Positions 46,600 through 50,305 of a DNA stretch of 64,000 nucleotides are shown in pieces. The stretch lies in contig JARLGU010000053.1 in assembly GCA_031292625.1 (NCBI GenBank), forward strand, positions 62,001-126,000, in the 5' to 3' direction. The position numbers were made by a program, and so were the translations under genes. Source of the stretch: Capsulimonadaceae bacterium. GTDB lineage: Bacteria > Armatimonadota > Armatimonadia > Armatimonadales > Capsulimonadaceae. Numbering within the stretch: position 1 is the stretch's first letter; every line of letters begins with the position of its first letter. Under the pieces are notes generated by a model that did no database searches, was not told the origin of the DNA, and saw nothing but the letters and a program-made list of their open reading frames with translations.

Positions 46600-47178
46600 T
46601 CAGCTGCCGGACACGCCGCCGGAGCGACGCTGCCGGCCAGTGCGCGCGTGATGGCGGCGATGGTGTTTGTTGCCGGCGGACGCCCCGGTGGTTCGAGCGG
46701 CCACAACATCTGAACCAACCGGCAGGCAAAGCCTCATGCCGGGCTGAAGCGGAGCGGACGTATCCAGCGAAGGATTAAGAGCACGGATCTGTTCGAGACG
46801 TTGGTCAATCGACGCGACGCCGGGAAGATAGTGATCCGACAACGACCAGAGAGTGTCCCCAGGCGCCACGTTGACGACAATCGTTCGAGACGGCGTCGCG
46901 TCAACCTCGAACGGCCCCGTATGCATCGCCGCGGCGACAGCCAGGTACGTCAGGACGAGAACCGCGGTCATCGAGAACAGGAGCGCCTCCCAGGCCCTCC
47001 AGGATGCCGGCGAATCCCAAGCCCCAACCTTTGAGGCCGCCCGCGCATTCGCGCCGACGCGCTTAGCCGCGACAGGGCTGTTGGTTTTCGCTGCCGGCGC
47101 GGCCGAAAGCGGCCAAGAATCGATGAACTTCAACGAGCACGGCGTATGGACGGATCTTAATGCAACAGGTATTGTCAT
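46600..47178 (-). CDS. LysM-domain single-pass membrane protein, YneA-like SOS protein
   Basis: The 192-residue protein has a basic N-terminal region, one transmembrane segment (about 66-86, 'LLFSMTAVLVLTYLAVAAAM') and a LysM domain ('VNVAPGDTLWSLSDHYLPG...LQPGMRLCLPV', about 100-152). It ends in a basic tail of His, Arg and Ser. The layout of TM plus extracytoplasmic LysM, and the position divergent to lexA under shared LexA boxes, are those of YneA in Bacillus, which halts division during the SOS response. The homology is of arrangement rather than of clear sequence, and the transmembrane segment is more internal than in YneA. Start ATG at 47178 with AAGGAG five bases ahead. Minus-strand TACAAT at 47253-47258 is the likely -10, so boxes at 47222-47252 cover the transcript start. 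Confidence 0.75.
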   Translation of the reverse strand: MTIPVALRSVHTPCSLKFIDSWPLSAAPAAKTNSPVAAKRVGANARAASKVGAWDSPASWRAWEALLFSMTAVLVLTYLAVAAAMHTGPFEVDATPSRTIVVNVAPGDTLWSLSDHYLPGVASIDQRLEQIRALNPSLDTSAPLQPGMRLCLPVGSDVVAARTTGASAGNKHHRRHHARTGRQRRSGGVSGS

Positions 47179-47221
47179 GACAACTCCTTATACAGGCTCA
47201 CAACGGATCGCTTCACACGAG

Positions 47222-47235
47222 CAAACTTTTGTTTG
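47222..47235. promoter_or_regulatory. LexA box A
   Basis: Perfect palindromic halves CAAAC-TTTT-GTTTG. It lies downstream of the probable start of the LysM transcript, four bases from box B. Confidence 0.75.
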
Positions 47236-47238
47236 CTT

Positions 47239-47252
47239 CAAACACCTGTTTG
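47239..47252. promoter_or_regulatory. LexA box B
   Basis: CAAACACCTGTTTG, adjacent to the minus-strand TACAAT (47253-47258) of the LysM gene, so LexA bound here would block that promoter. Confidence 0.8.
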
Positions 47253-47301
47253 ATTGTACCACGCCTCCTCCCCGCTATTGAAATACCTTTTGAGATTTTT
47301 T

Positions 47302-47315
47302 CAAACACTTGTTTG
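47302..47315. promoter_or_regulatory. LexA box C, autoregulation of lexA
   Basis: CAAACACTTGTTTG overlaps the first three bases of the lexA -35 hexamer (47313-47318). Confidence 0.8.
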
Positions 47316-47342
47316 CGGTCTGATTCCCATATCCGGTATAAT
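47313..47342 (+). promoter_or_regulatory. lexA promoter
   Basis: TTGCGG (47313-47318), 18-base spacer, perfect TATAAT (47337-47342). The leader to the ATG at 47393 is about 45 bases and contains GAGGA. Confidence 0.7.
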
Positions 47343-47392
47343 GCTGTTAGCAGTCAAACTGCCTTGTTTTCACTCATCCCCATGAGGAACCC

Positions 47393-48064
47393 ATGCAACA
47401 ACCCACCGACAAACAACGCCAGATTCTGAATTTCATCCGCAAACACATCGCCTTGACCGGTCAAGCCCCCACGGTTCGCGAGATTGGGCTAGAGGTTGGC
47501 CTCAGTTCGAGCTGCAGCGTCCAGAAGCATTTGGATACGCTAGAGCAGATTGGCAAGATCCGCCGCGGCAGTTTCAAGTTTCGCGGCATCGAGATCGTGG
47601 ACGAAAACGGCGAGGTGAGCCGGCTTCAAGCACAGCCGGTTCTGGCCCCGCTACTCGGGATCGTCGCTGGGGGCGCGCCGATCGAAGCGCTGCAGGAAGG
47701 CGATCCTGAGATGCTGCCGATTCCGGCGTCGTTGATCGGCCGCGGGGACCGCGAACGTCAGGCGGCCGCGTGTTCGGCGGGCGAGTTCAATGAAGCGCCG
47801 TATTTCGCGCTGGAGGTTTCGGGGGAGTCGATGAAGAACGCCGGGATCGGCGACGGCGACTGGGTGGTCGCGCGCCGCCAACGCACCGCCGAGAACGGGG
47901 ATATCGTCATCGCTTTAGTCAACGGCGGCGAGGCAACCGTCAAGCGGTTCTTCAAAGAAGGCAAGTCGGTGCGCCTGCAGCCGGAGAACGAAGCGTTTGA
48001 GCCACTCATCACGCGCGACGTGGAAGTGCTCGGCCGGGTCACGCTCGCGATCAAACGGTTTTAG
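47393..48064 (+). CDS. lexA: SOS repressor LexA
   Basis: The 223-residue repressor has the N-terminal winged helix ('RQILNFIRKHIALTGQAPTVREIG', recognition helix 'SSSCSVQKHLDTLE'). The self-cleavage site is Ala92-Gly93 in 'GIVAGGAP', and the catalytic dyad is Ser146 ('SGESM') and Lys184 ('ATVKRF'). Cleavage upon RecA activation would release the DNA damage response. It is longer than the usual 200-210 residues because of about 18 extra residues ('IGRGDRERQAAACSAGEF') between the cleavage site and the catalytic serine. Its own promoter overlaps LexA box C, so it is autoregulated. It diverges from the LysM gene and converges on a coiled-coil gene. The operator consensus CAAAC-N4-GTTTG can be read from the three nearby boxes. 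Confidence 0.97.
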   Translation: MQQPTDKQRQILNFIRKHIALTGQAPTVREIGLEVGLSSSCSVQKHLDTLEQIGKIRRGSFKFRGIEIVDENGEVSRLQAQPVLAPLLGIVAGGAPIEALQEGDPEMLPIPASLIGRGDRERQAAACSAGEFNEAPYFALEVSGESMKNAGIGDGDWVVARRQRTAENGDIVIALVNGGEATVKRFFKEGKSVRLQPENEAFEPLITRDVEVLGRVTLAIKRF

Positions 48065-49201: not shown

Positions 49202-50305
49202 CTAGGCAAAGAGCCCCTGATCCAGCCGCGTATTCAGCAAGGCACGCTGCGGCGATGCAAGCGCGAGATCGGCAAGTTCTGACGGTTTCGCGAGAACAAC
49301 GTCCGTCCGGCGCGCCAATAGTTTCAGCGCCTCATGATCGGCGCTGGCGGCGAATCCGGCGAGCGTAATTCGCCGGTTCATCACGGTGTGCCGGATCTCC
49401 CCAAACAAATCGCCTATCGTCGCAACAAGACCCGCGCGCTCGCTGCAAGCGCGGCTGGCGCACGCCTTGCGCGTCTCGCCTTCCGCGAGAGTCGCGCGCG
49501 GCAACTCCCACAATCCGCCCCATACGCCGCTGTCGGGACGGCGGATCAACAGGATACGTCGTTCGACCTCCAGCAATGCCGCACAATCGACGACCTGCAC
49601 CCAATGCGTCTTACGCAAGCGCACCGGCAGCGCGGTCGGATCCCCGCTCGCATGCGCGGCGCACGGCATTTGGAGCGGGCAGATGGGGCAAGCCGGCGAC
49701 GCAGGAGAGCAAACGAGCGCGCCGAGCTCCATCATCGACTGGTTGAAGTCCCCTGCCCTGCCTTGCGGGATCGCGCCCTCGGACAGCCGCCACAGATCCG
49801 CGCGGACGAGAGGCGAATCGATGTCGCCATCCAGGCCGTACAGCCGGCTCAAGACCCGCGCCACATTGCCGTCTACGACCGGCGCATCGACATCATACGC
49901 GATCGACGCGATCGCCCCCGCCGTGTAGCGGCCGATCCCGGGCAGCGTCAGAAGCTCCTCGACTGACGAGGGAAGCCGACCGTCGTACTTTGAGACAATG
50001 AGGTCCGCGGCGCGCTTGATGTTGCGCGCGCGCGCATAATAGCCGAGCCCCGCCCAGTGCACCAGGACATCGTCAAGCGACGCATCGGCGAGGGCATGGA
50101 CATTGGGAAACGACGCCATCCATCGCTCGAAATACGGCACAACCGCCGCGACCGTGGTCTGCTGCAGCATGATCTCCGAGATCCAGACGGCGTAGGCGTC
50201 TCCCTTCCGATCCCTCCACGGCAATCTACGCGCGTTGACGGCGAACCAGTCAAGCAGCAAACGCGTCCACGATGAGGAGGGTAAAAGAGCTAAGTTTGGT
50301 GTCAC
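49202..50305 (-). CDS. mutY: A/G-specific adenine DNA glycosylase
   Basis: The 367-residue enzyme removes adenine mispaired with 8-oxoguanine. It has the HhH-GPD core with catalytic Glu44 ('ISEIMLQQT') and Asp145 ('PVVDGNVARVLSR'), the hairpin 'LLTLPGIGRYTAGAI' and the iron-sulphur ligands C199-x6-C206-x2-C209-x5-C215. A C-terminal NUDIX-like domain ('VWGGLWELPRATLAEGE') recognises 8-oxoG. Start is GTG at 50305; no strong ribosome binding site is seen and no later methionine precedes the domain, so this start is the best available. Length is normal. Confidence 0.95.
   Translation of the reverse strand: MTPNLALLPSSSWTRLLLDWFAVNARRLPWRDRKGDAYAVWISEIMLQQTTVAAVVPYFERWMASFPNVHALADASLDDVLVHWAGLGYYARARNIKRAADLIVSKYDGRLPSSVEELLTLPGIGRYTAGAIASIAYDVDAPVVDGNVARVLSRLYGLDGDIDSPLVRADLWRLSEGAIPQGRAGDFNQSMMELGALVCSPASPACPICPLQMPCAAHASGDPTALPVRLRKTHWVQVVDCAALLEVERRILLIRRPDSGVWGGLWELPRATLAEGETRKACASRACSERAGLVATIGDLFGEIRHTVMNRRITLAGFAASADHEALKLLARRTDVVLAKPSELADLALASPQRALLNTRLDQGLFA

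Follow-up and report, generated by a model that had tools for sequence, protein, structure and literature searches.

Can an SOS division checkpoint of the type that Bacillus keeps beside lexA also operate in a bacterium with two membranes? This question is raised by a gene pair in the window, which here means the whole 64 kb stretch of DNA that was analysed. In the window, lexA and a gene for a small membrane-anchored LysM protein are divergent, with start codons 214 bp apart and three palindromes between them. We consider it rather probable, judging from sequence comparisons, that the LysM gene encodes a LexA-repressed division inhibitor of the YneA/ChiZ kind, and that the pair forms an SOS checkpoint module in a probable diderm. 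Control of the LysM gene by LexA is very likely on the evidence of the boxes. Given such control, inhibition of division by the LysM protein is likely too, by analogy with known systems. The features of the locus are as follows.

46600–47178, minus strand: LysM-TM gene, 192 aa (open reading frame, family profiles, AlphaFold2, hydropathy and charge)
47222–47235: LexA-type box 1, CAAACTTTTGTTTG, exact CAAAC-N4-GTTTG palindrome
47239–47252: LexA-type box 2, CAAACACCTGTTTG, exact CAAAC-N4-GTTTG, directly downstream of the LysM −10
47253–47258, minus strand: predicted −10 of the LysM gene, TACAAT, with a weak −35-like TTCAAT 18 nt upstream
47302–47315: LexA-type box 3, CAAACACTTGTTTG, exact CAAAC-N4-GTTTG, overlapping the lexA −35
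47313–47342, plus strand: predicted lexA promoter TTGCGG-18-TATAAT (from reading the sequence)
47393–48064, plus strand: lexA, 223 aa (TIGR00498, PF01726, PF00717)

About 1.1 kb past lexA lies mutY, encoding an A/G-specific adenine glycosylase (49202–50305, minus strand).

An earlier, sequence-only reading of this DNA had described a divergent lexA/LysM-TM locus with three near-identical palindromes at 47222, 47239 and 47302. All three are exact copies of CAAAC-N4-GTTTG, and the 64 kb of the window contain no further exact copy; when one mismatch was allowed, four sites were found where 1.69 were expected. The 5.77 Mb genome contains the exact form at eight places, three of which are at the lexA/LysM locus. 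The one-mismatch form showed no excess across the whole genome (144 sites versus 170 for the reversed control), and hence only near-perfect sites are informative. A genome-wide regulon based on the relaxed motif was dropped on the same count.

In line with the sequence-only reading, one palindrome overlaps the lexA −35: box 3 shares 3 nt with TTGCGG (47313–47318), which lies 18 nt from TATAAT (47337–47342). The other two, which had been placed over the start of the LysM gene, are instead located 44–74 nt upstream of its ATG (47178), at the transcription start. These boxes 1 and 2 are spaced 17 nt apart. Box 2 abuts the predicted LysM −10, so that the two boxes cover the expected LysM transcription start, and a repressor bound there would block initiation. 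A generic promoter scan listed neither the lexA nor the LysM promoter.

Comparison of lexA neighbourhoods across the Armatimonadota, as the sequence-only reading had proposed, bears out the pairing. The LexA query found a match in all 19 genomes of the order (a distant one, with 40% identity, in G134), and the LysM profile found a match in 18; G134, which is 69% complete, is the sole genome of the order in which the LysM profile had no match. Coordinates place the LysM gene next to lexA, in divergent orientation, in 11 of these 18 genomes, namely in all six members of the window's family that have the gene and in five of the 12 members of family f2. In the other seven f2 genomes, the LysM gene lies on a different contig from the detected LexA. 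The divergent arrangement is also found in four genomes of family f20 of the same phylum (G048, G109, G103, G023), and in G083 of this family the LysM gene is 1.8 kb from lexA. The relatives' LysM proteins have 21–30% identity to the window protein, which implies that the lexA-LysM pairing outlived most of the sequence. At E 1e-5 the LysM profile matched 120 of the 201 genomes of the phylum, many of the matches being in long frames and some frames having several LysM matches. Two genomes of one genus (G118, locus L297; G041, locus L296) have recA, the LysM gene and lexA within about 3.4 kb, forming a compact SOS cluster.

The boxes were followed across the phylum at promoters of short LysM genes. 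For this promoter test, LysM-profile matches were accepted at E 1.5e-11 or better if their open frame did not exceed 231 aa; together with G106, which has a 360-aa frame containing Ns, these are 44 genes. Six matches with longer frames are not among them (G016 C209, G053, G081, G135 C9, G042 and G183). Removal of G037, at a contig end, gave 43 genes from 39 genomes. Weaker short LysM matches, for instance in G055, G043 and G194, were left uncounted. A hydrophobic 19-residue window of 1.6 or more is present in 41 of the 43 LysM reading frames.

In 22 of the 43 genes, the 400 nt preceding the aligned part contain an exact CRAAC-N4-GTTYG. In dinucleotide shuffles, 0.115 genes had a box on average and never more than 2, and spacers of 2, 3, 5, 6 or 7 nt gave 0–2 genes. 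By context, the box is present at 10 of 15 LysM genes adjacent to lexA and at 12 of 28 non-adjacent ones, whose loci, of about 1.8–3.4 kb each, contain no lexA frame. The 12 non-adjacent cases, four of which come from one genus (g8), provide the cleaner test because some of the LysM genes counted are those at which the motif was originally recognized. Promoter stretches, although only 17.2 of the 143.9 kb, hold 35 of the 39 box matches. Of the other four matches, two are at recA (G118, G041), one lies at a distance of 1.5 kb in G052, and one straddles the stretch edge at the G103 LysM gene. Control regions, 38 of 247 with a box, were replaced by this count of matches inside and outside the stretches and by the shuffles; with 35 of 39 matches in LysM stretches, the controls must have contained largely the same boxes in overlapping frames. 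The exact box is absent from 21 of the 43 promoters, including all five adjacent f2 cases, and some of the box-less promoters show degenerate sites, as judged by eye.

Box positions are similar among close relatives. In the window's family, G079, G118, G041 and G129 have boxes at the LysM promoter as well as the lexA promoter, 149–187 and 76–106 nt upstream of lexA. In G052 the form is clear only for the tandem pair on the LysM side, which is spaced 17 nt apart as in the window and has one mismatch in each site. A sigma-70-type LysM promoter with a box 0–12 nt after the −10 was found in 11 of the 17 relatives' loci scanned, and these promoters are clearer than that of the window; a twelfth promoter-plus-box match, that of G052, is located elsewhere. 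In G171 (95% complete), a genome with no TIGR00498 match, one of the LysM genes (L289, contig C387) has two exact boxes flanking its −10.

The same class of box occurs at other SOS genes. It is found upstream of recA in G118, G041 and G129, and upstream of a Y-family polymerase gene in G118. In the window genome it precedes the likely start of uvrA by about 68 nt, this start being inferred, as the mechanical frame runs through the box. The window genome's own recA promoter contains an imperfect site, CGTACAGACGTTCC, recognized by eye. The class also resembles CGAAC-N4-GTTYG, which is present at many lexA genes of Bacilli. The exact form CRAAC-N4-GTTTG exceeded the reversed control in three of seven family genomes (G079, G129, G118), with no clear excess in the remaining four, and many inspected exact sites (22 loci of the seven-genome scan plus L008) were inside open reading frames. 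In view of this inconsistent excess and these intragenic sites, the comparison was restricted to sites at known SOS genes.

The LysM-TM protein consists of four parts.

Residues 1–56: N-terminal segment with net positive charge (7 K/R, 2 D/E)
Residues about 57–86: TM helix (AlphaFold2, hydropathy)
Residues 104–153: LysM domain (family profile)
Residues 155–192 (46603–46716, minus strand): basic His/Arg-rich tail of 38 residues

The LysM profile PF01476 matched with 34.9 bits (cut-off 20.9), and hydropathy showed one hydrophobic segment at residues 62–86. AlphaFold2 predicted a helix at 57–86 and a strand-helix-helix-strand LysM fold at 98–154; its block pLDDT values were 92–97 for residues 61–80 and 89–95 for residues 101–150, and confidence was low over most of the N-terminus and the tail. 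Pfam and NCBIfam detected no domain besides LysM. A Foldseek search against the PDB returned nothing at E 0.001 or better, and its weak matches included many LysM proteins. The TM helix and the LysM domain of the sequence-only reading both stand; the extracytoplasmic location that it gave the domain is argued from a single point, the charge bias of residues 1–56, which would place LysM outside the inner membrane. In the other 18 aligned LysM proteins, the tail is shorter than the His/Arg-rich tail of the window protein, or absent.

How close is this protein to YneA? The proposed resemblance to the Bacillus lexA-yneA arrangement is supported by synteny, by the boxes at LysM promoters, by profile similarity and by a YneA match below cut-off. 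The NCBI YneA model NF010723 covered the protein over model positions 7–86 of 87 with 25.3 bits, below its cut-off of 60, and we therefore propose that the protein is YneA-like in action and do not class it as YneA. Across the phylum, this model gave some match in 97 of 201 genomes and none above cut-off; it also matched proteins in seven of 14 control genomes, so a match to it is weak evidence by itself. The SafA/ExsA spore coat model TIGR02899 scored 22.2 bits, below its cut-off of 67.85.

Among the 80 lexA loci listed, at least seven have a profile-found LysM frame near lexA. Of those seven, two belong to Armatimonadota and five to Bacillota, Clostridia and Coriobacteriia, which we took as Gram-positive by name. 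The LysM gene is divergent in four of these five and tandem in one (L346), and two of the five proteins exceed the YneA cut-off. A comparison of profile versus profile with the five lexA-linked LysM proteins gave a probability of 99.3 and E 5.2e-20 over 91 columns, including the TM region, a result that is partly circular because the five were picked with the same LysM profile. The LysM domain alone would give much of this score, and the TM region adds layout rather than proof of descent.

According to the available parts of the sources cited here, SOS-controlled division inhibitors beside lexA are a Gram-positive trait (PMC6851548). YneA of B. subtilis is lexA-linked, SOS-controlled and built as one TM helix followed by LysM (PMC13396833, PMC6851548); its TM segment targets FtsW, and binding of LysM to peptidoglycan is needed (PMC13396833). 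The window protein differs from YneA in its longer N-terminus, its basic tail and its probable diderm host. ChiZ (Rv2719c) of Mycobacterium tuberculosis is likewise encoded beside lexA, damage-induced and composed of a TM segment and an extracellular LysM (PMC6851548, PMC3989709). Like the window protein, it has a long N-terminus ahead of the TM segment, a likeness seen in the layout; published work on residues 1–64 of ChiZ deals with them as a disordered segment (PMC7355643). Two further SOS-controlled single-pass division inhibitors encoded beside lexA, SosA of Staphylococcus aureus and DivS of Corynebacterium glutamicum, have no LysM domain, as far as the available text of the source tells (PMC6851548).

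The LexA of the locus has unusual traits of its own. It matched TIGR00498 with 170.7 bits, above the cut-off of 110.95, and its Ser146 and Lys184, which we take to be the catalytic Ser and Lys of the S24 protease, are invariant in 15 aligned sequences. The recognition-helix region reads SSCSVQKHL (SCSVQKHL type). Its scissile position is Gly93-Gly94 and not Ala-Gly, and one Ala-Gly pair lies one residue upstream. For comparison, 137 of the 143 LexA-like sequences scored have Ala-Gly as their scissile pair, and all six window-type LexA proteins of the window's family (the window and L049–L053) have Gly-Gly. Eight sequences that misfit the motif were left unscored; L028, L057, L060, L115 and L155 show Ala-Gly by eye. 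The LexA sample comprised 30 loci from the listed TIGR00498 matches plus 92 selected by place, omitting some near relatives and contig-end cases. Of 167 loci, among them duplicates and some further S24 proteins, 163 contained a lexA-like frame; eleven duplicate sequences were removed before the recognition helices and scissile bonds were compared. Cleavage of a Gly-Gly LexA may be slower or shifted, and induction by autocleavage is thus not assured. A literature search for a Gly-Gly LexA cleavage site found no paper with that term.

These differences in recognition helix and scissile bond might point to a different repressor, particularly since this LexA is not the only one in the genome: a second, more canonical one (contig C12, 13781–14398; 224.6 bits) has a VHAHL-type recognition helix. 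On this account, the palindromes would be bound by, for instance, the second LexA and not by the neighbouring one. The promoter of the second lexA has a different box, CGAACATCCGTTGC, a similar form of which occurs in three relatives and is absent in a fourth (L071). Several recognition-helix subtypes of LexA coexist within single Armatimonadota genomes. As far as the sequences tell, either the adjacent or the second LexA may act on the boxes. Yet, the motif class stands at lexA, recA, uvrA and Y-polymerase promoters, it resembles the class at lexA genes of Bacilli, and LexA proteins with the SCSVQKHL-type helix often have CAAAC-N4-GTTTG-like sites upstream, so we regard binding by another repressor as improbable. 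A more radical alternative is that the LysM gene is a bystander that happens to share the divergent intergenic region, with the boxes serving lexA alone. The short distance between the start codons fits this explanation, as does the location of the LysM gene on another contig than the detected LexA in seven of the 18 genomes of the order. However, two of the three boxes are at the LysM promoter, and exact boxes are kept at those 12 of 28 LysM genes that are not beside lexA; a bystander role is therefore very improbable.

If LexA does control the LysM gene, the product could still serve another purpose. Possibly, it protects or remodels peptidoglycan, for example as partner of a hydrolase or as wall anchor, instead of inhibiting division. 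LysM is a generic wall-binding domain, and ChiZ is a cell wall hydrolase whose LysM is apparently dispensable for its function, in the available account (PMC3989709). In contrast, the TM plus LysM layout, the linkage to lexA and the profile match to lexA-linked LysM proteins elsewhere favour a division inhibitor, and Pfam and NCBIfam found no further domain. Hence, we think a role in peptidoglycan protection or remodelling unlikely, but less so than the two regulatory alternatives, and we continue with the LysM protein as a putative division inhibitor under LexA control.

The host of this gene pair is probably a diderm, on the evidence of a BamA-like protein in the window genome that was found in two pieces of 170.8 and 80.7 bits, neither of which reaches the cut-off of 297. 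Seven of 14 control genomes also gave matches in this search; E. coli, Thermus and Thermotoga are among these seven, and B. subtilis is not. SulA of Escherichia coli resembles the proposed inhibitor in being a LexA-controlled division inhibitor in a diderm; it differs in belonging to another family and in acting on FtsZ (PMC6851548, available part). SulA (PF03846) had no match in the window genome or in any of the 201 Armatimonadota genomes, with E. coli as positive control. The sequence-only reading had noted a YneA-like partner where diderms usually have SulA. Its premise was too broad: SulA is not the general inhibitor of diderms, as Caulobacter uses an inhibitor other than SulA according to the part of the source available (PMC4211646). 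Among the papers listed by literature searches, mostly without subscription journals, none combined Armatimonadota with lexA, and no title or opening of an abstract described a YneA/LysM-type inhibitor paired with lexA in a diderm.

Gene layout, the boxes and their conservation, domain order and the similarity to lexA-linked LysM proteins of Bacillota and Coriobacteriia are seen in the sequence; repression and induction, topology and division inhibition are what we infer from them. LexA would repress its own gene via box 3 at the lexA −35, and the divergent LysM gene via boxes 1 and 2 over the transcription start. Upon DNA damage, LexA would be inactivated and the single-pass LysM protein would be made. 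The helix of this protein would reside in the inner membrane, with the LysM domain on the periplasmic side. There, LysM may bind peptidoglycan at the division site and stall septal wall synthesis, the action known of YneA in Bacillus. As gene pair, boxes and domain layout recur across a phylum in which SulA is not detectable, and the window genome has an outer-membrane assembly protein, the locus is a direct candidate for a damage-induced pause in division in such bacteria. It would extend the YneA/ChiZ kind of inhibitor beyond the Gram-positive bacteria in which, in the available text, it has been described (PMC6851548). Whether such a LexA-LysM checkpoint is an old feature common to Armatimonadota and the Gram-positive phyla is a tentative thought, and we lean against it. 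If true, the YneA/ChiZ-type SOS brake is not bound to a single-membrane envelope, and arose before the outer membrane was lost or gained in this region of the tree. The finding makes the age of the checkpoint testable.

One further box in the window genome deserves mention. On contig C19 (L231), a box at 85937 lies just upstream of the likely start of a protein without a Pfam match. A protein that appears similar by eye is encoded in G118 (L297, 1870–2715), between recA and the LysM gene. The gene of the L231 protein is a candidate SOS gene.
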